Assembly (NCBI GenBank): GCA_018817425.1 | Contig: JAHITX010000037.1 | Location: 1 to 37,388 of the forward strand | Direction: 5' to 3' | Length of the DNA stretch: 37,388 nucleotides | Source of the DNA: Pseudomonadota bacterium | Lineage (GTDB): Bacteria > Desulfobacterota > Desulfobacteria > Desulfobacterales > RPRI01 | Shown here: positions 4,363-37,117 of the stretch, piece after piece | Position numbering within the stretch: the first letter of the stretch is position 1 | How the letters are laid out: the number at the start of each line of letters is the position of its first letter | Translations under genes and position numbers: made by a program | Notes under the pieces: model-generated | Database searches by the model: none | What the model was told of the DNA's origin: nothing | Seen by the model: only the letters and a program-made list of their open reading frames with translations

Positions 4363-5289
4363 ATGCATAAATCCTACTACATAATAAAATCATTCTTACC
4401 CCGCCGGCTGCAGATTTATATCCGGCGCAAGGTTTTAATAAAAAAACGCCATAATTATAAAGATGTCTGGCCTATAGACGAAAAGGCTGCAAAGCCTCCT
4501 GATGCTTTTACAGGTTGGCCTGATGGGAAAAAATTCGCTCTTGTCTTGACACATGATGTAGAAAATGCAAAAGGACACGATAAGTGTAAGAAACTGGCGG
4601 AAGTGGATGAAAGTTTTGGGTTTAGATCATCTTTTAATTTTGTTGCAAAAGATTATCCTGTTTCAGCTAAACTACGCCAATATCTTACAGAACGGGGATT
4701 TGAAGTCGGAATACACGGCCTGCATCATGATAAAAACCCGTTTCGGTCAAAAGCAGTATTTCAGAAACAGGCTGAGGAAATCAACCGCTTTTTAAAAGAA
4801 TGGAATGCAGTAGGCTTTCGTTGCCCAAGCATGTATCACAATCTTGAAATGCTTCATGAGTTGGATATTGAATATGATGCCTCTACATTTGATACCGATC
4901 CTTTTGAACCTCAGCCTGACGGCATGGGTACAATATTTCCATTCCAGGTGACGGCTGATTACAATCAACATTTGAGACCTTTGAAGTATGTTGAGCTTCC
5001 TTACACCCTCCCCCAGGATTTTCTGCTGTACATACTCATGCGGGAGAAAAGTATAGAGATATGGAAAAATAAACTGGACTGGATTGCGGAAAAAGGAGGC
5101 ATGGCCCTCCTGATTACTCATCCTAACTATATAAACTTTGATAAAAAACCTGATTATGATCAATATCCTCTACATTACTACACGGATTTTCTTGAATACA
5201 TTAAATCAAAATATGAAGGGCAATACTGGCATGCACTACCAAAAGACATGGCACATTTTTGGGCCGATAATTACGGAACTCATCTTTAA
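4363..5289 (+). CDS. NodB-like polysaccharide deacetylase family protein
   Basis: A 308-residue protein of the carbohydrate esterase 4/NodB superfamily. Visible motifs are THDV at residues 63-66 (motif 1, catalytic-base Asp and metal ligand), HGLHH at 118-122 (motif 2, H-x3-H metal ligands), FRCPSMYHN (about 153-161, motif 3 R-x-P), and LLITHPNY near the C-terminus (motif 5 His). No signal peptide is evident; the N-terminus is basic (RRLQIYIRRKVLIKKRH), so it may act in the cytoplasm or at the membrane face. It would remove N- or O-acetyl groups from a sugar in the polymer or a precursor. It is the first gene of the polysaccharide locus. Its only ribosome-site-like sequence is GAGAG supplied by the preceding repeat. 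Confidence 0.85.
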   Translation: MHKSYYIIKSFLPRRLQIYIRRKVLIKKRHNYKDVWPIDEKAAKPPDAFTGWPDGKKFALVLTHDVENAKGHDKCKKLAEVDESFGFRSSFNFVAKDYPVSAKLRQYLTERGFEVGIHGLHHDKNPFRSKAVFQKQAEEINRFLKEWNAVGFRCPSMYHNLEMLHELDIEYDASTFDTDPFEPQPDGMGTIFPFQVTADYNQHLRPLKYVELPYTLPQDFLLYILMREKSIEIWKNKLDWIAEKGGMALLITHPNYINFDKKPDYDQYPLHYYTDFLEYIKSKYEGQYWHALPKDMAHFWADNYGTHL

Positions 5290-6930: not shown

Positions 6931-8244
6931 ATGAATATCAGCATTTTTGGACTTGGTTATGTAGGTTGCGTCAGTCTGGGATGTTTGGCAAAAAACGGCC
7001 ATCAAATCATCGGCGTAGATACTAATGAAACAAAAGTCCGTTATATCAATAAAGGGAAGTCACCAATTATCGAGAAAGGCCTCAATACGCTGATCGCTCA
7101 GCAATTTAAGGCAGGCAATATATCAGCAACTAACGATTCCATATCAGCCATACAAAATTCAGAAGTTTCTTTCATCACTGTCGGAACGCCTAATACCGAA
7201 CATGGGCATCTGGACTTAAATGCTATTTTTAAAGTAGCTGTGGAAATTGGCAAAGGTATAGCACAAAAAAAAGAAAAGCATATTATTGTCATCCGGTCAA
7301 CTGTTCTTCCCGGAACAAATGAGAAAGTATGTGAAATCATTGGAGACACGACTAAAAAGAACCCAGGAAAAGATTTTTTTGTGGTTTCTAACCCTGAATT
7401 TTTACGAGAAGGCTCTGCTATCAATGATTATTACAATCCGGCATACACATTGATCGGATCCAATGATGATTATGCCATTAGCAAAATGGAGGAAATCTAC
7501 AAAGACGTTTCTGCTCCAATCATCATTTCAGATATAAAGTGCGCCGAAATAATCAAATATGTCAATAATGCCTTTCACGCGCTGAAAATCACTTTTGCAA
7601 ATGAAGTAGGGAATATCTGCAACTGCCTTGGGATAGACTCACGCCGAGTAATGGAAATATTCTGTAGGGACAATAAGCTAAACTTATCACCCTACTATTT
7701 AAAACCTGGTTTTGCTTATGGCGGATCATGCCTGCCGAAAGATTTAAAGGCCTTGACAACTATCGCTAATGATCTGTATATAGACAGCCCAATCCTAAAG
7801 AATATAGATCGCAGCAATGAACTTCAAAAAGCCATGGCTATTAAGAAAATCATCGGATTTGGAAAACAGCGACTCGGTTTTCTTGGTTTGAGTTTTAAAG
7901 CTGGGACGGACGATCTGCGTAACAGCCCAATCATCGATGTTATTGAAGTGCTTCTGGGCAAAGGATTCGATATACGTATATTTGACCGCAATGTCCGTTT
8001 ATCCAAACTATTTGGAGCCAACAAAAAATTTATCATGGAGAAGATTCCTTTTATTTCTAAATTCATCATCAACGACCCCGATGAAATCATCAAACACTCT
8101 GAAGTATTGGTTATTGTCAACAACGATGAAGAATTTAAGAATATTTTAGATAAAGTTCCCAAAGGTAAGATCATTTATGATCTTGTTAACATAGACTTTA
8201 AAAACAAAGGGAAAAATAAAAAATATAAGGGCATTGCATGGTAA
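6931..8244 (+). CDS. algD: GDP-mannose 6-dehydrogenase
   Basis: A 437-residue UDP-glucose/GDP-mannose dehydrogenase family protein that matches AlgD most closely. MNISIFGLGYVG is the NAD-binding Rossmann motif. NPEFLREGSAINDY, NAFHALKITFANEVGNI and KLNLSPYYLKPGFAYGGS are AlgD-type. The catalytic Cys is C267 in GGSCLPKDLKAL; Pseudomonas AlgD uses C268. It oxidises GDP-mannose twice to GDP-mannuronate, committing carbon to a uronic-acid polymer. The start has a strong CGGAGGA site. The last 7 nt overlap the downstream glycosyltransferase, so the two are coupled. A 133-nt gap separates it from manC. UDP-sugar dehydrogenase is an alternative but fits less well. Confidence 0.92.
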   Translation: MNISIFGLGYVGCVSLGCLAKNGHQIIGVDTNETKVRYINKGKSPIIEKGLNTLIAQQFKAGNISATNDSISAIQNSEVSFITVGTPNTEHGHLDLNAIFKVAVEIGKGIAQKKEKHIIVIRSTVLPGTNEKVCEIIGDTTKKNPGKDFFVVSNPEFLREGSAINDYYNPAYTLIGSNDDYAISKMEEIYKDVSAPIIISDIKCAEIIKYVNNAFHALKITFANEVGNICNCLGIDSRRVMEIFCRDNKLNLSPYYLKPGFAYGGSCLPKDLKALTTIANDLYIDSPILKNIDRSNELQKAMAIKKIIGFGKQRLGFLGLSFKAGTDDLRNSPIIDVIEVLLGKGFDIRIFDRNVRLSKLFGANKKFIMEKIPFISKFIINDPDEIIKHSEVLVIVNNDEEFKNILDKVPKGKIIYDLVNIDFKNKGKNKKYKGIAW

Positions 8245-13239: not shown

Positions 13240-13536
13240 ATGACTGACCGCCAAGATGATAGCTTGAAAAAGAGATTAAACAAACACCCCCATCTAAAAA
13301 ATAGAATTGTACAATTATTGGAAATCGTAGAAAACGCTGATGGAGATTTGAAAAAAGCCGATGAAGCTGAAAAAAGAGTGATTGAAGAATTACGTAAAAT
13401 GGGAAATGAAGTATTGCACGATTGGGCTGTATGCAGAGAAAAACAGGAAGCTGAAGCCTTAAATAAAAAGGGATTAGTAAAGAATGGTAAAAAAAATAAC
13501 TTGGCATACAAGTTATGGGGAAATATCTGTTTTTGA
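13240..13536 (+). CDS. ISKra4-family upstream ORF (transposase N-terminal part)
   Basis: A 98-residue charged, helical protein starting at ATG 13240 after AAGGAGG. It is rich in Lys/Glu (KKADEAEKRVIEELRKMGNEV) and probably forms a helical N-terminal region. It overlaps the transposase frame by 53 nt. At 13489-13496 there is a run of eight A residues, after which the two frames differ by one base. Loss of one A by polymerase or ribosome slippage would fuse this part to the transposase, giving a single protein of about 450 residues, which is the usual ISKra4 size. Confidence 0.8.
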   Translation: MTDRQDDSLKKRLNKHPHLKNRIVQLLEIVENADGDLKKADEAEKRVIEELRKMGNEVLHDWAVCREKQEAEALNKKGLVKNGKKNNLAYKLWGNICF

Positions 13537-14548
13537 GAGAACTTTTTTAGATAAAGGGAAGTTGTATAGACCTTTTTCTTATACGGCAGAAGTAACAAGC
13601 CGCTGTTATTCGCTTCCTTTACAGCGTATCATCACGGACTTTGGAGCAGATGTATCATTTCAAAAGATATCAAAAAAACTAATGGAGCATTATGGAATAA
13701 GTGTTTCTGTCAGTTCAGCGCAAAAGATCACAGAGAAGCATGCTGAATCTATTAAGAGAATAGAATACCTGCATAGAGATATACCCGAAGATGATGGGGT
13801 AAAAAGTTTGATATGTGAAACAGATGGAACAATGATTCCAATAGTGGATACTGTTGAAAAAAACGGAACCTCTGTAGACAAACGAAAGACTCGTAGCGTT
13901 CGATGGAAAGAAGCGCGTTTAGCTTTTGCCCGGCAGAAAGATAAGGTTGATCGGATATTTAGTGGTACACTTGGTTTGACAGATATGGCCGGAGACCATC
14001 TATTTGATTGTGCTGTTAGAGCTGAATTCGGGGGTAAAACAAAAGTACATTGTGTTGGTGACGGAGCCCCATGGATTGCAGAACAGGTAGAAAGGGTATT
14101 CGGCAATCAAGGGAATTATTTAATCGATTTTTATCATTTATGTGATTACATGGCAGCAGCTTCTAAAAAGTGTTTTCCGGAAAATCCGGATGCTTGGCTG
14201 GATCAACAAAAAAAGAGGATGAAAGAAGGAGCTGTCAATAAAGTATTGAAGTCTTTGTCGTTACATGAAGAACCGAAATCAAAACAAGATAAAGATGCGC
14301 CGGTTCGTTGCTGTTTGCGCTATATCAACAACCGTCCGGGACAATTTAAATATAAAGAGACATTAGCTGGCAATTTACCAATTGGTTCTGGTGAAATAGA
14401 AAGTGCGCATCGTTATGTCATACAAGATCGTTTAAAAATACCAGGTGCATGGTGGAAAGAAATAAATGCCAGCCATATGCTCGCATTAAGAATCATTAGG
14501 GAGAATGGCGAGTGGGATAAATACTGGGAAGATAATAAAGCAGCATAA
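13484..14548 (+). CDS. ISKra4-family DDE transposase
   Basis: A 354-residue transposase. The likely DDE residues sit in CETDGTMIP (about residue 110), CVGDGAPW (about 193) and GSGEIES (about 300), with FYHLCDY after the second Asp. RYVIQDRLKIPGAWWKEINA near the C-terminus is typical of the family. It can start at ATG 13484 inside the upstream frame, or be made as a fusion through the A8 run at 13489-13496. All catalytic blocks are intact and the element has both ends, so it may be active. Confidence 0.92.
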   Translation: MVKKITWHTSYGEISVFERTFLDKGKLYRPFSYTAEVTSRCYSLPLQRIITDFGADVSFQKISKKLMEHYGISVSVSSAQKITEKHAESIKRIEYLHRDIPEDDGVKSLICETDGTMIPIVDTVEKNGTSVDKRKTRSVRWKEARLAFARQKDKVDRIFSGTLGLTDMAGDHLFDCAVRAEFGGKTKVHCVGDGAPWIAEQVERVFGNQGNYLIDFYHLCDYMAAASKKCFPENPDAWLDQQKKRMKEGAVNKVLKSLSLHEEPKSKQDKDAPVRCCLRYINNRPGQFKYKETLAGNLPIGSGEIESAHRYVIQDRLKIPGAWWKEINASHMLALRIIRENGEWDKYWEDNKAA

Positions 14549-21712: not shown

Positions 21713-23254
21713 TTGAAACCAACGAAAAATCTGTCTATAGATAACAGTAAGCCAAATCAAGATGATTTTAGTACTAATCACCTCCTTTCTAACTTAACAC
21801 ATAAAACGGTATCAAGCAGTTTTATCTCTTTGGGAACACAGGGTGCAAAATTCTTATTGAACTTAATGTCTACAATAATACTCGCCAGATTACTTATGCC
21901 TGAAGATTTTGGTATAGTTGCCATGGTAATGTCTGTAAGTGGGTTTTTTATGATGTTGAAAGATGCTGGCCTTTCAACGGTTGTTATCCAAAAAGACTTA
22001 ATAACCCATGAACAAGTATCAAACTTATTCTGGCTTAACATTATATTTTCCACTGGGCTAAGCCTAACTATGGCTACTATTGCTTATCCAGTTTCGTGGT
22101 TCTACAAAGAACCACGACTTGTTAATATAACATTAGCACTTAGCATAATTTTTTTTATATTTGGTTCCTCATTTCAACATCAAGCACTTTTGAAACGTCA
22201 ACTTAAATTCAAAACAATTGCAGCGATTGAAATAGGATCTATGGCCTCTGGATTTATAACAGGTGTATTTATGGCTTTACATGGCTATAAATACTGGTCG
22301 CTTATAGGACAAAATATTGCATTAGCTCTTATGACCTGTTTATTGACATGGTACTTCTCTAATTGGCGCCCAAGTTTTTTTACTCGTAATTGTGGCACTA
22401 TACCTTTGCTTAATTTTGGAATAAATTTAACAGGCGCAAGCTTATTGCAGGCTATTTCTCGTATGCTAGAATATTTTTTAATTGGTCGGTTTTATGGAGC
22501 ACAGGCACTTGGTATCTATTCAAGGGCTAATGCTCTTTTAATGAATCCTCTGCAGCAATTATTAAGCCCTCTATCTAATGTTTTCATACCTGTTTTATCC
22601 AGGCTACAAACTGATGAAAAACGTTATCGAAATATTTTTTTACAAATTTATGAAACTATGGCAATACTTATATTTCCTGCATCAGGATTGTTAATGATAA
22701 TATCTGACCCCCTTATAAATATTGTTTTAGGACCAAAGTGGCATGAAGCTGCACCTATATTCACATTATTTACAATTTTAGCAATTTATGCTCCTTTATC
22801 CGGCGCAACGATTTGGTTATTTACTAGTCAAGGGAGAGGGAATGATTTAATAAGGACTACTACTATTATTACTTTTTTTGGCATTTGCTCAATAATAGTT
22901 GGCTTACCTTTTGGGGCTAAAGGTGTAGCATTCAGTTATTCGTTGACTGGTATTTTCATTCGCCTGCCAATTCTTTACTATTTAGCTGGTAGAAAAGGAC
23001 CTGTGAGTACAACAGATTTATTCGTCAAGTTTGTCAAACATTTGCCTCTTTGGTTTGGTGTTGTTGGATCAACCTATATAACAAACATACTAATTCCCAC
23101 TCATGAACCAATACATCAAATCTTTATTTCTACTTTTGTCGGAGTCATTGTCAGTATATTCCTTATTTATAACATTAAACATGAGAGGGAAATAGCTATC
23201 AACCTAATAAATAAAATGTTCACTTTGATACCAAATAAATTTATAGTGAAATAA
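21713..23254 (+). CDS. wzx: Wzx-type polysaccharide flippase (MOP superfamily)
   Basis: A 513-residue polytopic membrane protein with about 12-14 predicted helices. N-terminal SSFISLGTQGAKFLLNLMSTIILARLLMPEDFGIVAM is the classic opening of RfbX/Wzx polysaccharide transporters, followed by GLSTVVIQKDLI. Its role is to flip the undecaprenyl-linked repeat unit to the periplasmic face. The start appears to be TTG 21713 with GAGGA just upstream; the first in-frame ATG is about 45 residues in and would remove the first helix. The start lies directly after the stop of the broken methyltransferase, so it was probably coupled to that gene, and the insertion may lower its expression. Confidence 0.92.
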   Translation: MKPTKNLSIDNSKPNQDDFSTNHLLSNLTHKTVSSSFISLGTQGAKFLLNLMSTIILARLLMPEDFGIVAMVMSVSGFFMMLKDAGLSTVVIQKDLITHEQVSNLFWLNIIFSTGLSLTMATIAYPVSWFYKEPRLVNITLALSIIFFIFGSSFQHQALLKRQLKFKTIAAIEIGSMASGFITGVFMALHGYKYWSLIGQNIALALMTCLLTWYFSNWRPSFFTRNCGTIPLLNFGINLTGASLLQAISRMLEYFLIGRFYGAQALGIYSRANALLMNPLQQLLSPLSNVFIPVLSRLQTDEKRYRNIFLQIYETMAILIFPASGLLMIISDPLINIVLGPKWHEAAPIFTLFTILAIYAPLSGATIWLFTSQGRGNDLIRTTTIITFFGICSIIVGLPFGAKGVAFSYSLTGIFIRLPILYYLAGRKGPVSTTDLFVKFVKHLPLWFGVVGSTYITNILIPTHEPIHQIFISTFVGVIVSIFLIYNIKHEREIAINLINKMFTLIPNKFIVK

Positions 23255-27270: not shown

Positions 27271-28881
27271 TTATACCGCACATAGACCCTGCTTTGGCAT
27301 CATTTGTGCCATTCTGAATGCAGCAGCTCTAAAGATGTTCACTCCCAAAGCTTTCAGCACGGCACAGTAACTCACAGCTTTGAGCCCTCGAACCCGAAGT
27401 CGCTTGACCCCGGTTCTCCGGTCATATTCCGACATGGTGGCTTCGACTCCGGAGCGCCAGCGGTAACGATCTTTGAATCCATCGGTTCTTTCATATAACC
27501 TGCGCATGGCAACACGTTTATCTTTTTCAGTAAACCGCAGGTAAAAAAACTTGCGGCCTTTTTTAACCGGACATTGTGATTGTTTGGGACAATTGCTGCA
27601 AACTTCCATATCAAAACCCACACTGTTGCGCTTTTTCTTTTTGACTGTAACAGGCGGATGCCCTTGCGGACAGGCTAAAATACAACCATCATCGGATATC
27701 TTAAAGTTGCAAAGGCCAAGCTTATCTTCTTTCGGGGCTCCCATAACCGGTGCAACCAGTTCAACCCCCTGGGTTTCTGCTTTTTGGAGGTTGTTATCGC
27801 TGCCATAAAGAGAATCGGCAAGAACCTCCTTAGGCGCAAACCCGTTTGCTTCGGCAGATTCAATCGCAGGTAAAAGAGCGTTCGCATCACTTTGATACGC
27901 CTTTTCTACTTTGACATGGGTAATCAGTCTTAGCTGTTTGTCTTCAGGATCATCACAAGGTGAGTATGTCTCCATGATCTGAACCTGATAGCCTTGTCCT
28001 TTATGGCCGCTGTAACTTGCATCCGGATCTGACGGATTCTGCAATGAATCGGAAGCAATCTCTTTGGGTTTCTTTATCAAAACAGGATTATCGGTATCAT
28101 CTGTTAAGTTGCATTGCTCATTTAAAACCCGCTCAAGAAGTTTAAAACTGTACAGAGAAGATACTTCATCTGTGTGCTGGAACTGTACAAACAGGTTAAA
28201 AAGATCCTTGCTTACTTCGCTTAAGGTTTTATGAGATTCGGATGGCTTTACCATGGAAAAGCAGTTCATAGCGTTTTTGGTAAAGTACTTTTCAATAATA
28301 TGCTTATCCACCTTATCGAAGAAAGCGGGATACTGCCGTTTAAGATTAGCCAGAAATTTGTGGATGGTTTCTGAAAAAATTCCGATTCTGCCAAGCCTGC
28401 GCATATTGGACTTTATATGCACTGAGTCAAGACGCTGCTTGTCGGTATTGACATTAAAAGCTTCAGCCAGCTTAGCTGTGCCGGAGTTGAAGATTATGTC
28501 TTCGAGACCGTTTTGTACAATTATGTTTCGGTTGTTCCACAATGTTTTAGTGCTGACGTATTTGGCATTATCCGATTCTTCCGTGATATTTAATGCATAA
28601 TGCCATTGCATATTAAAGCAATACTGCTGAACCGTTTCTTCATCAGTAAGGTTACAAGTCTGCTGTAGAATAAGTGCACCAAGCATGGAATAAAGCTCTT
28701 TTGTTGACCGCCCCATGAATTCGTCGAAAAACTTTGCAAATTTATCGGCAGGAATAGAAGGCAGAATGTGCTCACGGAATAATCCAGGCCATCCGGCATC
28801 AAGCATTTGCCGTCTTTTTGGAGAAATACTGTCCCATGGATCAAAAATGTAAAGCTGTTTAGGATTTTGCATATGTATCAT
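27271..28881 (-). CDS. IS1182-family DDE transposase
   Basis: A 536-residue transposase on the minus strand. The N-terminus (LYIFDPWDSISPKRRQMLDA) and the DUF772-like region around FFDEFMGRSTKELYSMLGA are typical of IS1182. Catalytic blocks include an early Asp in the region of RLDSVHIKSNMRRLGR, EVLADSLYGSDNN, and GVEATMSEYDRRTGVKRLRVRGL. A cysteine-rich zinc-like segment, CPQGHPP...CSNCPKQSQCPVK, precedes the last block. Start ATG 28881 has AGAGG 6 nt upstream and a good promoter further up. The frame is uninterrupted, so it may be functional. Confidence 0.93.
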   Translation of the reverse strand: MIHMQNPKQLYIFDPWDSISPKRRQMLDAGWPGLFREHILPSIPADKFAKFFDEFMGRSTKELYSMLGALILQQTCNLTDEETVQQYCFNMQWHYALNITEESDNAKYVSTKTLWNNRNIIVQNGLEDIIFNSGTAKLAEAFNVNTDKQRLDSVHIKSNMRRLGRIGIFSETIHKFLANLKRQYPAFFDKVDKHIIEKYFTKNAMNCFSMVKPSESHKTLSEVSKDLFNLFVQFQHTDEVSSLYSFKLLERVLNEQCNLTDDTDNPVLIKKPKEIASDSLQNPSDPDASYSGHKGQGYQVQIMETYSPCDDPEDKQLRLITHVKVEKAYQSDANALLPAIESAEANGFAPKEVLADSLYGSDNNLQKAETQGVELVAPVMGAPKEDKLGLCNFKISDDGCILACPQGHPPVTVKKKKRNSVGFDMEVCSNCPKQSQCPVKKGRKFFYLRFTEKDKRVAMRRLYERTDGFKDRYRWRSGVEATMSEYDRRTGVKRLRVRGLKAVSYCAVLKALGVNIFRAAAFRMAQMMPKQGLCAV

Positions 28882-28975: not shown

Positions 28976-30445
28976 ATGTGTTATAAAATATTACTTTTTA
29001 CGAGTCCATCAATTATGAAGAACAATTATTTTAGTAAAAATAATTTTGATTTATCAAACGGCTATAGCAACTTTGAGATGGTCATAAAAGAAGGGCTCTG
29101 CGTCGGTTGCGGTATTTGTTCAGGAATATTTCCAGAATCATTTAAAATGGAAATTTCCAAGTATGGTGAATATCACCCTATTTTTTTAAATAACTATAAT
29201 CTTAATCAAATATTTAGCAAAGCAGAAAAGTTTTGCCCATTTACTGGAGTTGGAGAAAACGAAGATAGGCTTGGCCAAGAAGAGTTTGGAAATTTAGCAG
29301 GAATTAATCATTTATCAGAGTTAGGGTACTTTTTAAACACATACGTTGGTTGGGTAACAAATGATTCAAATCGTATATCATCCAGTGCAGGGGGATTAAC
29401 AACATGGTTATTAAAATACCTATTAAAAAATAAAATTATTGATGGTGTTATTTGTGTTAATCCTACTAATTCAAATGATATATTTTTTGAGTATAGTATA
29501 ATTCGAAAAGAACAAGATCTCGATAAAAGCAAGAAATCTAAATATTATACCATCGAGTTATCAAAAGTTATTAAAGAATTAAAGGCATCTGATGGGAAAT
29601 ATGCTATTGTGGCTTTACCTTGTTTTATAAAAGGCTTGCGCTTAGCAATCCAGCATGGATTTTTACCTCGTGAAAGATTTTATTGCATGATAGGATTGTT
29701 CTGTGGGCACCTGAAGACAACGCAATTTTCACATTATCTTATTCGGCAATGCGGTTTAAAAAAAACCTCTGTAATAACTGTTGATTTCCGAAAGAAACTC
29801 CTTAATGAAAAAGCTTCAGATTATGCTTTTGAAGTCACCGCAAAAAATGAATTTAATAATGTTGAAAAGCATCATATAAAAATGAAGGATGTTTTATTAG
29901 GTAATTGGGGGTTGAACGCATTTATGTTAAAAGCATGTGAATATTGTGATGATGTCGTCGCGGAACTTGCTGATGTTTCATTAGGAGATGCCTGGTTACC
30001 TGAATATGTTACCGATAGCCGTGGAACCAATATTATTATATGCAGAAGAAATGATTTGCATGATATTTTCCTACAAGCTGCTGATACTGGTGAAATAGCA
30101 TTAGAGGATATTGATCCTAAAAATGTTATTCTTTCCCAGGATGGTGGTTTTCGCCAAAGAAGACAGGCACTATCTTATCGGCTTTTTATTTCAAGAAAAT
30201 ATGGATTATGGCGACCAAAGAAAAGAATATCGCCTTCATCGAAATCAATAAAAATTTTTAGCAAAATAATTCAAAAGATTCGGATTAAAATTGCACAGAG
30301 CAGTAAGGAAAAATTTCATGAATATTTAATAAAAAATGATTTGAAGTCTTTTTCCAATCAAATGTCTTTTTGGGTATATATATTTAACTTCCTATATAAA
30401 ACCAAAAGGCTATTTAAGCTTATCACTTCATCTTTTCATTTATAA
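28976..30445 (+). CDS. Coenzyme F420 hydrogenase/dehydrogenase beta-subunit-like protein
   Basis: A 489-residue protein of the FrhB/FpoF-like family found in polysaccharide loci. CVGCGIC at about residues 42-48 plus CPF near 87 form a ferredoxin-type [4Fe-4S] site; only part of a second set is visible. The FrhB N- and C-terminal domains follow: SSSAGGLTTWLLKYLL, VALPCFIKGLRLA, GLFCGH, CEYCDD and DVSLGDAW. In loci of this kind it is often paired with pyruvyltransferase-family genes, but the reaction is not established; a flavin/FeS redox step on a sugar is plausible. ATG 28976 and an internal ATG at 29015 are both possible starts; neither has a strong ribosome site, and IS1182 lies immediately upstream. 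Confidence 0.85.
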   Translation: MCYKILLFTSPSIMKNNYFSKNNFDLSNGYSNFEMVIKEGLCVGCGICSGIFPESFKMEISKYGEYHPIFLNNYNLNQIFSKAEKFCPFTGVGENEDRLGQEEFGNLAGINHLSELGYFLNTYVGWVTNDSNRISSSAGGLTTWLLKYLLKNKIIDGVICVNPTNSNDIFFEYSIIRKEQDLDKSKKSKYYTIELSKVIKELKASDGKYAIVALPCFIKGLRLAIQHGFLPRERFYCMIGLFCGHLKTTQFSHYLIRQCGLKKTSVITVDFRKKLLNEKASDYAFEVTAKNEFNNVEKHHIKMKDVLLGNWGLNAFMLKACEYCDDVVAELADVSLGDAWLPEYVTDSRGTNIIICRRNDLHDIFLQAADTGEIALEDIDPKNVILSQDGGFRQRRQALSYRLFISRKYGLWRPKKRISPSSKSIKIFSKIIQKIRIKIAQSSKEKFHEYLIKNDLKSFSNQMSFWVYIFNFLYKTKRLFKLITSSFHL

Positions 30446-30703
30446 AAATTGTGACCCAGAAAGTAATTGCTGGAAAATTATGCCAATAATTAAGAAGCTT
30501 AAATAATTTAATATACCCTTGATAAATGCATGCTTAATCTCTTAAGGTTTGCTGTTTAATCCCCCGAAGCTTATTCGTTCATTGCTTTTTGATACGTCAC
30601 AACTTGCTCCGGGGTAGTTCATTAAATATTTAAAAATATTATTTCGATATAAAAATAAGGTTGTTAAACATAATTTCCCACAGATTTGCACAAAATTATC
30701 GTA
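30446..30703. other. Intergenic region with a decayed REP-like sequence
   Basis: A 258-nt gap with no gene. CCCCCGAAGCTT (about 30560) and ACTTGCTCCGGGGTAGTTCATT (about 30602-30623) look like two worn copies or split halves of a GC-rich palindromic repeat, with GTTCATT after each. No clear promoter was found, and the start of the following gene has no strong ribosome site. Confidence 0.35.
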
Positions 30704-32080
30704 ATGCCTCCTCAATTAGTTCTATTGTTATGCTTTCTGTTTATAATTTACGTTTTATACTCTGAACGCAAACGAAATACACAAGTTTCTCGGGCACTGA
30801 TTTGGCCTTTGCTTTGGTATATGACTGCTGCAACACGGCCTATCGGAGTTTGGCTATATATCTGGGGCTTCAAATTGCCTTCTTCCAATTCACCAACAGA
30901 AGGAAGCATTATTGATGCATGTTGGTTAACCATATTAATTGTTATTGGAATCTATATACTTAATAGCAGGCACTATCGTTGGCATACCATAATAAGAGAA
31001 AATATATGGTTCTTGTTATTGTTTTTCTTTATGGCACTAAGCATTTTTTGGTCACAATATCCTATGGTCTCCTTTAAGAGAGTTATAACTTCCTTCGGAT
31101 CAGTAGTCATGGCTCTGGTTGTCCTCACAGAACCCAAACCCGTAGAAGCGATTATAGCAACGCTAAGAAGATGCGCCTACTTTACGATTCCACTTTCAAT
31201 AATTACCATAAAGTACTTCCGGAATATTGGCGTCCAATGGGGAAATTGGTCTGGAGAAGCATCTTGGGTAGGTCTATCCATGTCAAAGAATACGCTAGGT
31301 CAAGTTGCTACAACCGGGGCTCTCTGTTTCATTTGGGAAAAGATGCGCAAACACAATAGCAATGATGTTAGAGTGATTGATTTTTTATATATTATAATGA
31401 GCTTGTATCTTTTAAAAGGATCAGATAATGCCATAAGTGCTACATCCATTTCTGTATTTGCCACCGGTTTTTTGATTTTTATAATGTTGAACTTTATGAA
31501 GATTAAAACAGAAAGAATCAAACCATTTTTCAAGCTAGTCTGTATCATTATCTTCGCTATACAATTGACTTTAATTTGTCACACCTTAAGTCCTTTCCCC
31601 AAAGACTCTGCATTGGGCTTCCTCGTTCAGGGGATGGGACGTGATATGACTTTGACTGGGCGAACGGAAATATGGAGCGATATCTTCTCTGTAGCTTCTC
31701 ACAGACCTATGCTCGGCACGGGCTATGGTGCTTTCTGGATTGGTAGGCTGGTTAATATCCCATGGTCAGAAAATATGTCCTGGGTATTGAATCAAGCACA
31801 TAACGGCTATTTTGATATATATCTTCAACTGGGATGGGTTGGTATCTGCTTGCTTATAGCTTCTATATTTTTCACTATCCCAAAAATCGTTCGCACATTT
31901 TCTTTTGACTATGAATATGGTCGATTTAGAATGACCTTTTTTCTTGTAATTCTTTTCATCAATATCACTGAATCAACATTGCTAAGGCTCAATCACCAAA
32001 TGTGGTTTATTTTCCTTCTTGCTGCATTAACTGTTGCACCTTATAAAGATAGCAGTATTGTAGGGGTAAATGAGTTTTAA
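30704..32080 (+). CDS. Wzy/WaaL-type O-antigen polymerase or ligase
   Basis: A 458-residue polytopic membrane protein with about 11-12 helices. The Wzy_C region is clear: GMGRDMTLTGRTEIWSDIF, RPMLGTGYGAFW and NQAHNGYFDIYLQLGWVGI, the large periplasmic loop containing the conserved Arg and the H-N motif. In a locus with Wzx it most likely polymerises repeat units, although ligase activity is possible. I choose ATG 30704; an in-frame TTG 18 nt earlier would add six residues. Both lack a good ribosome site. Confidence 0.88.
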   Translation: MPPQLVLLLCFLFIIYVLYSERKRNTQVSRALIWPLLWYMTAATRPIGVWLYIWGFKLPSSNSPTEGSIIDACWLTILIVIGIYILNSRHYRWHTIIRENIWFLLLFFFMALSIFWSQYPMVSFKRVITSFGSVVMALVVLTEPKPVEAIIATLRRCAYFTIPLSIITIKYFRNIGVQWGNWSGEASWVGLSMSKNTLGQVATTGALCFIWEKMRKHNSNDVRVIDFLYIIMSLYLLKGSDNAISATSISVFATGFLIFIMLNFMKIKTERIKPFFKLVCIIIFAIQLTLICHTLSPFPKDSALGFLVQGMGRDMTLTGRTEIWSDIFSVASHRPMLGTGYGAFWIGRLVNIPWSENMSWVLNQAHNGYFDIYLQLGWVGICLLIASIFFTIPKIVRTFSFDYEYGRFRMTFFLVILFINITESTLLRLNHQMWFIFLLAALTVAPYKDSSIVGVNEF

Positions 32081-32138: not shown

Positions 32139-33269
32139 ATGACTATTATAGTTCCCCACGGTTTTGAACCTAACTATACTTTAGGTTTTGTTAAAGGTCT
32201 CGTTGCACACAACATTGACCTTTGCGTTATTTCGTCAGATATAGATCAGCTTAGACTTACGAAAATAGGTATTAATAATATTAATTTACGTGGCTCACAG
32301 GACCACAACAGGACTTTTCTGTCTAAGGCAATCAATATTATAAAGTATTATGCTTACTTGTTGATATATTTGCTGCAAAATCAAAGAAATGTCATCCACT
32401 TTACTGGCCTCTTCGGAAACTCTTCAATTCTTTATGATGGCATTATACTGAACTTGTTTTTTAAATTAGTATCGTCGCGGTATATATATACGGTTCACAA
32501 CATTCTTCCTCACAGTAAGCAAAATAGCCAATTATTTAGATGGATTTACCGAATAATATATATAGTACCAGATATCCTTCTGGTCCATACTCACTTGGCA
32601 AAACAGCAACTTGTGGAAAAATTTCATGTTCCAGAAAGAAAAATAATTGTTATTTCTATCGGTCTAAATGAAGAAATACCGGTCACGAAAATTACTCAAA
32701 ATGAAGCAAAAAAGCATTTGGGTTTCAACAGCCAAGACAATATTGTACTTTTTTTTGGGAAAGCTGATACATATAAAGGTCTGGATATTCTAATAGAAGC
32801 ATTCGATCAGCTCAACCTGCCATCAATGAAACTCCTTATCGCCGGATGGTTTCCAGATTCGTCCTACCGCCAACAAATTACTTCAGCTATTAATAATGCC
32901 GACCATAGAGCAGCTATTTATCTGCATGAAGCATTCATCCCCAATGATGAGGTTGAATATTATTTCAAAAGTGCTGATGTCCTTGTTCTACCTTACAGGA
33001 ATATTTACCAGAGCGGGGTAGTATTCCTTTGTTTTAATTTTGGCCTGCCGATAGTATCTACACCTGTTGGCTCAATTCCTGAATTTATTGGAGATGATAT
33101 GGGAATCATAACAGAAACCAATGATCCACAGGGAATAGCCGATGGACTAAGGCATTTTTTTGAGGCAAAAGATAAATTTAACAGGGAAATAATTGCAGCA
33201 AAGGCAAAAAAATACAAATGGGAAAATCTTTGTAAGGCCCTTGTTCCACTATATAAAGAAAGATACTAA
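32139..33269 (+). CDS. Glycosyltransferase, GT4 family
   Basis: A 376-residue GT-B glycosyltransferase. The N-terminal domain opens TIIVPHGFEPNYTLGFVKGL, and YTVHNILPHSK is a conserved acceptor-domain segment. The donor domain has VLFFGKADTYKGLDILIEAF, LLIAGWFPDSSYRQ, DVLVLPYRNIYQSGVV and FGLPIVSTPVGSIPEFI. It forms a tight pair with the next GT4 gene (3-nt gap), so the two probably add successive sugars. Confidence 0.9.
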   Translation: MTIIVPHGFEPNYTLGFVKGLVAHNIDLCVISSDIDQLRLTKIGINNINLRGSQDHNRTFLSKAINIIKYYAYLLIYLLQNQRNVIHFTGLFGNSSILYDGIILNLFFKLVSSRYIYTVHNILPHSKQNSQLFRWIYRIIYIVPDILLVHTHLAKQQLVEKFHVPERKIIVISIGLNEEIPVTKITQNEAKKHLGFNSQDNIVLFFGKADTYKGLDILIEAFDQLNLPSMKLLIAGWFPDSSYRQQITSAINNADHRAAIYLHEAFIPNDEVEYYFKSADVLVLPYRNIYQSGVVFLCFNFGLPIVSTPVGSIPEFIGDDMGIITETNDPQGIADGLRHFFEAKDKFNREIIAAKAKKYKWENLCKALVPLYKERY

Positions 33270-33272
33270 TTT

Positions 33273-34349
33273 ATGAAGAAAGTTTTACTGGTATCAAACA
33301 AAGTATTTCATTACAGGGTCTCAAATTATAATTATTTTGCAAAACGTTTTAAGGATTATGAATGGGAGTTTATAGTACGCTCGAATGAACTTGAAAAACA
33401 AAATCCTTTCCCTTTGGAATTTGATTTCAAAGAAATGCCTTTCAGTTTTTTCAACTATAAGCGCGAAATTGAGCAAATCCGCCCTGATGTGGTTATATTT
33501 TTTCTACATCTCAAAGACATTATCATATGGCCGCTTATACACTGGCTAAAACTCAAAAGAATACCTGTTGTTTACTGGAATAAGGGTATCAACCTGGAAG
33601 TACATAACCCTGGTCTTCGCAATCTCTTTTTCTACTACATTCATACTTTAAGCGATGCCCTTATACTATATTCAAAAAATGAGGTAAAAGATATCTGGAC
33701 CAAAAATCAGCATAAGGTATTTATTGCCAATAACACAATAAACTTTGAGTCTTTTCCTGAAATTTTACAGACAAAGGAAGAAATTAAGCAAGAATTTGGT
33801 ATCCCTTTTAACAAAGTAGTGCTTTTTGTTGGTCGCATGCGCTCTGTCAAAAAAGTGGAACATCTGATACAGGTATTTAATTCTCTTGATGAGCCAGGAT
33901 TAGGTTGTGTTATTGTTGGTAATTCTATGGCATACAATATCCATGACCTGATTAAGCGTGATAATATACTTTACCTTGGAGAAATTCATGATCCGAATAA
34001 TCTTCAAATAAGCAAGTTATTCAAGGCATCAGACATATTTTGTATCCCTGGAGATGTGGGACTTGGCTTAAACCAGGCTTTTTATTGGGGTTTGCCTGTT
34101 GTAACTGAGGATGGTCTTCAACCCCCAGAGATACACTATCTGACAAATGGCCAAAATGGTTTCATTGTACCGGAAAATGATATAGAAAAATTGAAGGCCA
34201 AAATCATATTATTGCTCTGTAATGACGAATTACGTGATCAATTTTCGCAAAAGGCGAGAAATGTAATCATAAATGCAGCATCTATTGAAACCATGTTTAA
34301 GGGATTCTTAAATTGTGTTTTGGCATTGAGTTCGCCGGATCGCCATTAA
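33273..34349 (+). CDS. Glycosyltransferase, GT4 family
   Basis: A 358-residue glycosyltransferase starting 3 nt after the preceding gene, so it is translationally linked to it. N-terminal [21 protein letters not shown] resembles GT4 enzymes that begin with an H-Y-R-x-x-x-Y motif. The donor domain has [55 protein letters not shown] and [12 protein letters not shown]. Its donor and acceptor are unknown. It is the last biosynthetic gene of the locus. Confidence 0.9.
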
Positions 34350-34462
34350 AAAAAGACCATTATGATAACGTGACAATATTCGATGCATTGCTTGATTTCA
34401 AAATAACTTTGATGTGGTATTCTTTTTTACTTAACCATTACAGCAATTGGAGGAAACATCTT

Positions 34463-37117
34463 ATGACTTTTTATAAATATTACTTATGGATGTTCTTGCG
34501 GATTGTAGCAAAAATGAAAGTAAATTTGTTCTCTTTTATATTTGCAATAATTTTTAGTTTACCTTTATTGATAGAAAGTGGATTTGCGGCTACTTTTGCA
34601 GCTAATACTTGCTCTCAATCTGATGTTTCAGCCACTATTTCAGCTGCCTCTGACGGCGATACGGTTTCAGTACCTTCTGGAACTTGTACTTGGGGGACAA
34701 GTAGTACATATGTTCTTGTCAATAAAGCTATCACTCTACAAGGTGCAGGACGAGGAATTACGATAATTAATCTTGCTGATAGCGGATCAACATATGCTAA
34801 TGCAGTCATAAGGATAACTGCTGCTGCTACCGTCAAGAGTATGACAATAAACGGTTCCGACGCTGCTTTTGTTAGTGCTTTTTCTGCTGGGACAGTTGAT
34901 GGATGGAGAATCACAGACATTGATTTCAACGGCGGGACACATGAAGCTTATTTTGTTTATGCCGGATCGTATGGCCTAATTGACAATAATAATATAACTG
35001 GCGCATCCGGTTCTTCCGAACTTATATTTGCAAGGGGGCCGACTGATTCATGGCAAACAGCTAATTCTATCGGTGAGGCAGATAATCTTTTTATTGAAAA
35101 TAATATATTTAATGGAATTGGTTATGTGTGCGATATTAATTCTAATGGAAGAGCAGTCGTCCGATACAATACCATAAATGGGATAAGCAAGATTGATGGG
35201 CATGGTAAAGCAAGCAACTCACCACCCCATGGTGTTAGGCATTTGGAAATATATAACAACACATGGACAAATACCACTAATTATTGGGCTGCTATGGAAA
35301 TACGTGGCGGTGGGGGTAGAATATTTGATAATGCCATACAGTCATCTGCATCTATATGGCTTTTATTGGAAGAATTTGGGTGTTTAAATAAATGGCCTAA
35401 CTTTGATAGCGAATATCAATGCCTAAGTGATTACCCAATAGATGATCAGATTGGTGTTGGGATTGACCCTAAGTCAGCTGCTAGTGAACCTTTATATATA
35501 TGGGGGAACACTAAAAATGGATCTCCTATTTCATTTATTTATCCAGCAATTCCAGCAGGTGCAATAACAGATTGTGGCGAAGGTTCTTGGACTATGGAAG
35601 ATATAATACAAGAAGGACGTGATTATTTTGAATCAGAAACAAAACCCGCTGCAATGAGTGGATATACACCATATACTTATCCCCATCCCCTTGTTTGTGC
35701 CTCTTCACCTTATCCCGAAACCGCCCTCTGCCCTCAACCTGTGGTTACGGTATCACCAACAACAAAAGATTTTGGAAGCATCACTATCGGCTTTGAAACC
35801 GATACACAAACATTCACGGTTTCAAATGGCGCTGGCGGTGGATATCTTAAAGTAAAAGCAGTTGCCCTGGCAAATGAAGATGGCGATTATGACCAATTTG
35901 CATTGTCAGTCGGAGAAGACACCTGTTCGGGGAATATAATGGCTCCGGACCAAAGTTGTAGTTTCAAGGCATATTTTCGCCCGTCAACAGAAGGCGCAAA
36001 ATCTGCAGATATTGTTTTGAGTTATACAGACGATTCTCCAATAAAAACCATACCTGTAAGCGGAACAGGAACTGCCATACCAATCCCTTATATGTCAATT
36101 TCACCTACTTCGATATCTTTTCAGGATGTAAATACATACGCAACATCTGCGGCTCAGCCAGTTACCATTCAAAACATCGGAAATGAGGTACTCAACATAA
36201 GTACTATTGATCTTTCAGGTGGAAATGATAACCTGTTTAATATAGTAAATGACGAATGCAGCACAGTGCAGGATATACCAAAGTTTAGTACTTGTACATT
36301 CGGTGTAACATTTGCGCCAACAACAGGAGGAGAAAAGGAAACAACTCTTACTATCACATCTGATGCAGGCAACTCTCCCTATGAGATACCTTTATCCGGC
36401 AACGGCACCTCAACCACAAATGTAACCTCAACCAATTCAACTGTTTCAGAATATATAGTCTCCGATTCAGCATCAGGCTCCCCTTCGGATTATACAACCC
36501 AATCGGTTGTAAGTTATACGTTAACAGGTGTAAGCAGCAGTGCCAATGTCAGTATTACCTATCCTTCTTTACCGGCAAGCCCTGTATTCTATAAAGTTGT
36601 GAGCGGTGTATGGAAGCAAATATATCCCACAAATGCTACCTCCGGAATTACAGGCGTTACATTAAGCGGCTTAACTCTTAGCTATACCATTTGGGACAAC
36701 AAAGATTGTGATAGTGATGGAACGTCGGGCACCATCACCGACCCGGTAGCCGTTGGCACTGTGGCAACGGCAACAACAAAAAGCGTTGCTACTGATGGTG
36801 GCGGCGGTGGAGGGGGCGGGGGATGCTTTATAGCAACAGCCGCATATGGATCAAGTCTTGATAAACATATAGTTCTCCTGAAAAGCTTTAGAGATAATTA
36901 TTTGTTAACTAATTTTGTGGGCGAAGCATTTTTAAACTTATATTATAAATATTCACCCCCTGCCGCAAATTTCATCCGCAAACATGACACCGCAAGAACC
37001 GCAACACGAATTGCCCTTACCCCAATTGTCTATAGCGTTCAATATCCCTATCTTCTGCTTCTGCTTTTAATACTTCCAGCGCTCATTCTTTTAAAAAGAA
37101 GAAAGACTATAAATTAG
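34463..37117 (+). CDS. Secreted beta-helix protein with choice-of-anchor and CFI-box C-terminal domains
   Basis: An 884-residue secreted protein. ATG 34463 follows GGAGGA by 8 nt. A signal peptide with hydrophobic core ([20 protein letters not shown]) ends near residue 42. A right-handed parallel beta-helix (about 45-420) contains coils such as [15 protein letters not shown] and [12 protein letters not shown]. Two choice-of-anchor D/ASH-like domains follow ([14 protein letters not shown] and [14 protein letters not shown]), then a choice-of-anchor U-like domain ([13 protein letters not shown] to [14 protein letters not shown]). An eight-Gly linker leads to [15 protein letters not shown], the CFI-box, ending in a membrane helix and LLKRRKTIN. 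The C-terminus suggests sorting to the cell surface. Beta-helix folds include uronate epimerases and lyases, so it may act on the polymer. Confidence 0.85.

Follow-up and report, generated by a model that had tools for sequence, protein, structure and literature searches.

A putative polysaccharide-active beta-helix protein with a C-terminal CFI-box domain in a Wzx/Wzy-type polysaccharide locus of a Desulfobacterota genome

Results

Gene and protein architecture

The window analysed here is the whole of contig JAHITX010000037.1 (C37; 37,388 nucleotides) of the Desulfobacterota assembly GCA_018817425.1, which amounts to 5.1 Mb in 147 contigs and is 99% complete. It carries a polysaccharide locus and, at the contig edge, a gene for a beta-helix protein ending in a CFI-box domain, the subject of this study. 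The open reading frame (ORF) of 884 amino acids is real and spans 34463-37117 (+); a Shine-Dalgarno-like GGAGG (34449-34453, +) ends nine bases 5′ of its ATG at 34463. With a GC content of 0.41-0.42, the gene is richer in GC than both the two preceding glycosyltransferase genes (0.35) and the window (0.36). A first-pass annotation of this DNA had taken the gene for the terminal one of the locus, which cannot be judged because the window is the entire contig and the gene sits at its edge.

The protein is modular, and all its parts are encoded on the + strand. An N-terminal signal peptide (residues 1-42, 34463-34588) with the hydrophobic stretch [23 protein letters not shown] is followed by a beta-helix domain (residues 43-410, 34589-35692), which is defined by an AlphaFold2 model, fold matches in the PDB and family alignments, and which closes with the family signature [10 protein letters not shown]. 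Two choice-of-anchor D domains of the ASH/HYDIN-like immunoglobulin (Ig) type come next (residues 426-534 and 544-648, 35738-36406). Here the curated NCBIfam model choice_anch_D (NF012200.0) scores 104.6 bits over two stretches against a cut-off of 45, and the Pfam models PF22544 and PF22073 exceed their cut-offs in the same Ig/ASH-type region (residues 426-648). A choice-of-anchor U domain (residues 681-765, 36503-36757; NF041766.1, 37.2 bits, cut-off 32) and a glycine linker (residues 779-787, 36797-36823) lead to the CFI-box-CTERM domain (residues 788-856, 36824-37030), whose first residue is Cys788. The whole CFI_box_CTERM model (NF041770.1, positions 1-69) is matched at 94.9 bits (cut-off 40), which places the domain in this family; it is the only CFI-box match in the genome (E <= 0.001). 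The protein ends in a membrane helix 3′ of a VYSVQ stretch (residues 861-877, 37043-37093), a tail that we class below as type i, and in a basic KRRKTIN (37094-37114). Signal peptide, membrane helix and KRRK tail were assigned from the sequence by eye, and a model of the C-terminus (predicted local distance difference test, pLDDT, 87.6) has four helices in the CFI domain and a last helix that covers the membrane segment. The architecture proposed in the first-pass annotation thus stands in all its parts except for the linker, which has nine glycines and not eight.

Fold of the beta-helix domain

No Pfam beta-helix model reaches its cut-off for the 884-residue protein. AlphaFold2 predicts from a 34-sequence alignment a right-handed parallel beta-helix starting at residue 41 (pLDDT 87.1, predicted template modelling score 0.89). 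Among 612 aligned PDB chains, all preselected by Foldseek, 398 reach Z >= 8, and the alignments cover model residues 1-354 (residues 41-394 of the protein). The best fold relatives are tied at Z 22-25: the RbmB lyase, AlgE, polygalacturonases, tailspikes and PfbA. PfbA, a surface adhesin according to its entry title, is the top row (Z 24.9), level with the enzymes; AlgE modules fit the model at Z 24.2-24.6, and RbmB (by its entry title a Vibrio polysaccharide lyase, PDB 9ozl) shares the fold at Z 23.7. RbmB is absent from the PDB matches of the family profile and, to our knowledge, has no CFI-type anchor. A structure prediction set against AlgE and lyase folds, as suggested earlier, thus yields a beta-helix with AlgE, polygalacturonases and RbmB among its tied best matches. 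Since the scores tie across an adhesin, epimerases and lyases, polygalacturonases, RbmB and tailspikes, the fold alone names no function.

Searched against the PDB, the profile of the 34-member family matched the lyase 7dmk of polysaccharide lyase family 6 (PL6; E 3.5e-11), AlyF (E 2.3e-4) and the phage protein 7chu. In BFVD, some of the predicted viral proteins that match carry pectate-lyase-like, tail-fibre or tailspike annotations, at low template modelling scores.

Conserved residues of the beta-helix

Four residues, E212, R234, H247 and E262, are identical in all 34 rows of the family alignment (A4), in which identity with the window sequence drops to 24%. Together with R259 and R281 they are also identical in each of the six bacterial rows of a second alignment (A2). 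The conserved stretch from E212 to R281 (35096-35305, +) is likely the active site or a sugar-binding face. By our own reading of the DSSP string of the model, E212, R234 and E262 lie on same-class strands of successive coils, and in the model they would share one face of the helix.

The PL6 lyases BcelPL6, BcAlyPL6 and AlyF have the beta-helix and the remote profile matches in common with this family and differ from it in their Lys/Arg pair. In BcelPL6 the catalytic residues are Lys-249 and Arg-270 (PMC6879350). By our reading of a weak match to 6qps (E 0.021), the window protein has Asn226 and Gly246 at these two positions; its conserved H247 falls opposite His-271, and its E212 and R234 pair with a Glu and an Arg. 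The first-pass annotation had pointed to uronate lyases; in the case of PL6 the predicted fold agrees, but the alignments do not retain the Lys/Arg pair.

A mannuronan C5-epimerase had been suggested as well. The active site of AlgG/AlgE C5-epimerases is marked by the motif DPHD, which occurs in 0 of the 34 rows of A4 and 0 of the 6 rows of A2 (38 distinct sequences together), and an epimerase of the AlgG/AlgE type was dropped on this ground.

The polysaccharide locus and bacterial relatives

The 23 window ORFs scanned with Pfam and NCBIfam describe a locus of the Wzx/Wzy-type heteropolysaccharide kind. It contains GMP-PMI, an AlgD-like dehydrogenase, phosphomannomutase, WecB, a flippase, acetyltransferases, a pyruvyl-transferase-like gene, Wzy_C and several glycosyltransferases. 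On the + strand, two of the glycosyltransferases (32139-34349; Pfam PF00534) lie immediately 5′ of the beta-helix gene, preceded by a Wzy_C / O-antigen ligase-type polymerase (30686-32080; PF04932, 52.9 bits) and, further upstream, by a Wzx-type flippase (21713-23254; PF13440, 277.6 bits) and an AlgD-like GDP-mannose 6-dehydrogenase (6931-8244; NDP-sugDHase, 397.5 bits). Since the product of the latter is 50% identical over its full length to an AlgD sequence, the polymer likely contains a mannuronate residue. No Alg44, AlgX or AlgK was named among the scanned ORFs, several of which matched nothing. A polysaccharide-deacetylase-like protein (4363-5289, +) matches nothing in NCBIfam or Pfam; in the PDB it weakly resembles a polysaccharide deacetylase (E 9e-4).

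The beta-helix family is rare: full-length copies number five in 395 genomes of the phylum, the window's copy included; matches were found in 36 of the 395, and the 31 genomes with partial ones only (<58 bits) were left out. Four of these five copies, those of the window, G140, G064 and G179, lie in related polysaccharide loci, which supports the earlier proposal that the beta-helix acts on the polymer of its locus. The three other loci all keep a homologue of the deacetylase-like protein (56-60% identity). They also share with the window a glycosyltransferase of family GT4 (56% identity in G179, about 26% in G140 and G064), and AsnB-like proteins are common to the window and the related loci at 22-30% identity. 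Near the G140 and G064 beta-helix genes, Wzy_C proteins are 31-33% identical to the 30686-32080 product; G140 has in addition a Wzx homologue (33%), and in G179 some 11 kb separate an AlgD homologue from the beta-helix gene. In the fifth locus (G105), the beta-helix alone matches a window gene.

All four other full-length proteins, including the three in polysaccharide loci, end without a CFI-box. The sole other protein seen with the whole architecture (L037, from another collection) is 39% identical over 952 positions and is encoded on a short contig with a YdjC-like gene upstream.

The window locus also holds two transposase-like genes (13484-14548 and 27271-28881; ISKra4-like and IS1182-like, both below cut-off) and an FrhB/FdhB-type gene (28976-30445).

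Viral relatives

Used as the query on viral contigs, the family alignment picked up 72 loci, compared with 0 loci and 1 locus in two scans that started from one beta-helix sequence. The window copy clusters with four viral sequences (L122, L123, L124 and L149), its nearest relatives, at an ultrafast bootstrap (UFBoot) of 100. In L123 a portal gene adjoins the beta-helix gene and a tail sheath stabilizer is two genes off, in L149 a tail-fibre-like gene lies two genes away, and in L124 a head-closure-like gene is found within two ORFs 3′. Across 33 of the 72 loci, 116 neighbours match 54 PHROG families; among the best 25 of these, most of the families that recur are those of tail fibre, tail, portal, head-tail adaptor or virion proteins. 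The beta-helix is thus of a kind found in phage tail and virion modules, and it has probably been exchanged with phages. Beta-helices in such modules are often depolymerases. Many viral family members start with a signal-peptide-like sequence (by eye).

Distribution and formats of the CFI-box domain

CFI-box matches occur in 60 of 198 genomes of the phylum (54 over the cut-off), mostly one to three per genome; four genomes carry 15-28. Three formats were seen. In the first (a), exported-type proteins have a membrane helix 3′ of the domain, as do 74 of the 88 ORFs of the genome-contig set, a membrane-like stretch being a 19-residue segment with a Kyte-Doolittle hydropathy (KD) >= 1.6. The N-terminus is hydrophobic in 64 of the 76 CFI ORFs with a complete 5′ end, and 62 of the 88 have the type i tail. 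Types i and ii are told apart by a proline near one position, at the start of a short helix, with the borderline cases L053, L084 and L093 counted as type ii.

In the second format (b), proteins terminate with the domain. About 20 of them are found in an Omnitrophota assembly of 1.6 Mb (G200), several cut by contig ends and some with a visible signal peptide; the domains (L260-L279) are closely similar and end otherwise different proteins. Degenerate domains that are not followed by a membrane helix are present at 19-28 matches per genome in G034, G071 and G185. In the 15 loci that were read there (L203-L217), C[PA]xxxx[YL]G often replaces [10 protein letters not shown], and one locus has two domains in tandem.

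The third format (c) is cytosolic-type and comprises cold shock plus zinc ribbon, restriction-endonuclease-like, TPR and kinase-like proteins, as well as a protein whose gene shares an operon with those of Hsp70 and an AAA ATPase; most of these domain names were given by eye or by record annotation. Small CFI-box ORFs also precede Cas4-like nuclease genes in conjugative plasmids. In MOBF/MPF_F plasmids (L034, L326, L330 and L332) such an ORF is kept shortly 3′ of an M48 metalloprotease gene and is followed by a Cas4-like or PD-(D/E)XK nuclease gene or, in L330, by a hypothetical gene. Among 40 plasmid records with a CFI match, 16 proteins were translated and scored, and 14 of them lack a membrane-like stretch, including one with a Tat-like signal (H36, by eye). 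As for the remaining two, H20 has a tail helix and the stretch of H17 lies within the last helix of the domain. One GenBank phage record carries a CFI-box.

The Cys of the CFI-box is invariant in alignments A1 and A3, partly since their sequences were picked by a CFIATA-like pattern; variants found by profile mostly retain the Cys, followed by P, A, V or T instead of F, and some are without the segment. The PDB yielded no relative of the domain by profile or by Foldseek (one chain reaches Z 2.8), which is not proof of a new fold. A hedgehog- or intein-like cleavage at Gly-Cys was considered and dropped, because a residue other than Gly often precedes the Cys and because of the small size and helical make-up of the domain.

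Three loci have unusual arrangements. In two of them the CFI-box is joined to pseudopilin-type sequences (by eye), standing 3′ of a pilin-type N-terminus in L299 (G036:C10) and 5′ of a GspG-like sequence in L077, and in L029 an in-frame outer-membrane-protein-like segment of >200 residues follows the CFI-box and membrane helix (by eye).

Neighbours of CFI-box genes and the question of a sorting tag

The first-pass annotation had described the sorting machinery of CFI-box proteins as undescribed, in line with our literature search, which found no description of the domain or of such machinery; it had also seen a lead in the linkage of the CFI-box to a polysaccharide locus. No neighbour recurs: 125 of the 129 immediate neighbours of 80 CFI loci were surveyed (four of >=1000 residues were left out), and they fall into 134 Pfam families with at most five members each. 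No glycosyltransferase family is among the best 25 of these 134. As a general rule, the linkage therefore fails, in view of this survey and of the three other beta-helix proteins in polysaccharide loci that have no CFI-box. The link was dropped, and we infer that the cargo of the CFI-box happens to be a polysaccharide protein in the window.

The search for sorting enzymes covered exosortases. An exosortase match (E <= 0.001) is present in 31 of 60 genomes with a CFI-box and in 47 of 138 without (p = 0.026, relatedness ignored). At >100 bits, half of the genomes with a type i tail (25 of 50) have a match, compared with 4 of the 21 in which all tails are of type ii (p = 0.018, again ignoring relatedness). 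The exosortase survey drew on 74 of the 80 CFI loci, the others (L044, L061, L081, L090, L098 and L102) being in assemblies already represented by accession. The 25 type i genomes that lack a >100-bit match, mostly metagenome-assembled and perhaps incomplete, include G203 with its 10 CFI matches.

A CFI gene adjoins an XrtC-like exosortase gene in G119, G197 and L067, and in G119 the gene beside the CFI gene matches the PEP-CTERM kinase PrsK. In L304, L305 and L067, the genes of a CFI-box protein of the PKD/Fn3 type and of an XrtC-like exosortase form a conserved pair in convergent orientation, with PrsK beside the L304 pair. The window's genome has three exosortase matches; a 49% identical exosortase lies on its contig C38. 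In a tree of 21 exosortases, the XrtC-like group of 14 holds 9 from genomes with and 5 from genomes without a CFI-box. Given a weak enrichment with many exceptions, no exosortase looks obligatory for the CFI-box; an exosortase as the dedicated CFI enzyme is not favoured, and it is retained as a rival because of the three adjacent pairs.

In that alternative, the C-terminus would be a true sorting tag: an exosortase-like or other intramembrane enzyme would cut near the helix, and the mature protein would go to the outer surface. Choice-of-anchor domains, glycine linker, membrane helix and basic tail do fill the usual anchor slot, and the frequency of type i tails, the adjacent XrtC-like genes, the enrichment and the exosortase matches in the window's genome all fit it. 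Nevertheless, we think it unlikely: half of the type i genomes are without a strong exosortase match, the enrichment p values ignore relatedness, no neighbour recurs, and the 69-residue domain, modelled as helical, occurs in cytosolic-type proteins too and can form the very end of a protein.

Among described systems, PEP-CTERM/exosortase (PMC1569441) and MYXO-CTERM/myxosortase (PMC11980579) share with the window protein the C-terminal membrane helix and basic tail, and MYXO-CTERM also a conserved Cys. Like CTERM-type tags, the window protein closes with a helix and a basic cluster (residues 861-884). In contrast to a short motif just before the helix on exported proteins, its Cys opens a folded domain about 70 residues before the helix, and the CFI domain also occurs without a membrane helix. 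The name CFI_box_CTERM (NF041770), matched here over its full length, implies a C-terminal tag, whereas the survey shows a modelled folded domain.

The CFI-box appears to be something other than a simple sorting tag. A tag that is purely cut by a sorting enzyme fits poorly because the domain also ends cytosolic-type proteins without a membrane segment. We infer instead a C-terminal association module, which in the window protein would be a membrane tether. The earlier idea of C-terminal processing is weakened by the same cytosolic-type proteins. By analogy with a proposal for MYXO-CTERM (PMC11980579), the conserved Cys may be a modification site.

Discussion

In our proposal, the protein is tethered to the membrane and its beta-helix acts on polysaccharide, probably as a lyase or hydrolase, the gene being part of the locus that makes the polymer; we put the probability of this at about one half. 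The protein would be exported by Sec via its signal peptide, and its predicted beta-helix would fold outside the cytoplasm. There, the conserved E/R/H/E set may bind, cleave or trim an acidic, probably mannuronate-containing Wzx/Wzy heteropolysaccharide. The two Ig-like domains and the choice-of-anchor U domain would serve as a spacer and the glycine run as a flexible joint. CFI-box, adjacent helix and basic tail would keep the C-terminus in the inner membrane, with the enzyme working at the polymer exit.

For an enzyme that would trim or remodel its polymer at the cell, the best precedent by analogy is WceF of Pantoea stewartii. WceF is described (PMC7949094) as a beta-helix of tailspike-like fold from an exopolysaccharide (EPS) cluster and a slow hydrolase of its own polymer, so that both cases have the gene of an exported right-handed beta-helix within an EPS synthesis cluster. 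The window gene lies in an EPS/capsule cluster of which one side is visible at the contig edge, and its product would be exported, judged by its signal. The two proteins differ in build: WceF is a trimer exported by Tat, with head and neck domains like those of tailspikes (PMC7949094), whereas the window protein has a Sec-type signal (by eye), an Ig-like spacer, a CFI-box and a membrane helix.

Several observations weigh against our proposal. Repetitive beta-helices may inflate profile matches, and the best single 7dmk domain has an independent E value of 1.9e-5. The catalytic Lys/Arg columns of PL6 are unconserved in the family in profile alignments to 7dmk and 6qps, and the fold is also used by an adhesin. 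An AlgD-like gene (48% identity) is near only one of the four other beta-helix copies, and the G105 copy is outside a polysaccharide locus, its neighbours being of the M23 peptidase and RadC-like kinds. All four viral relatives come from contigs classed as viral by IMG/VR and not from isolates, and a tblastn search of 50,697 GenBank phage records with the G140/L118 beta-helix gave no match.

The main competitor for the role of the beta-helix is a non-catalytic one, in which a lectin-like binder or adhesin would hold the cell's own polymer or a foreign glycan to the cell, as with PfbA of pneumococcus. The top rank of PfbA in the PDB comparison, in a tie with enzymes, is consistent with it, as are the absence of the residues that are catalytic in PL6 (Lys, Arg) and in AlgE/AlgG (DPHD) and a long spacer and anchor that would suit an adhesin. 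We hold it to be unlikely. Four charged residues are invariant in a family that is otherwise so divergent, and that family is found beside polymerase genes and in phage modules where depolymerases are common. A mannuronan C5-epimerase, to which the AlgE fold matches and the AlgD-like gene had pointed, is very improbable, given a DPHD-less family and a Wzx/Wzy-type locus with no Alg44, AlgX or AlgK named among its scanned ORFs.

A bolder form of the membrane-tethered enzyme, which we regard as doubtful, would make it a domesticated phage tail depolymerase, mounted on an Ig-like spacer and a CFI-box, that sets the length of its own polymer or releases it at the membrane exit. The CFI-box would then be a general membrane-association module of bacteria and archaea that can work from both sides of the membrane, with Cys788 as a possible acylation site, and no tag for a sorting protease.

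For the CFI-box family, whose matches extend to 60 of 198 genomes of the phylum, annotation as a surface-sorting tag is unsafe because the domain ends cytosolic-type as well as exported proteins. For the beta-helix, the window protein would be, beside WceF, another phage-type beta-helix tied to a polysaccharide synthesis locus, and one for which invariant residues and a phage homologue are on hand.

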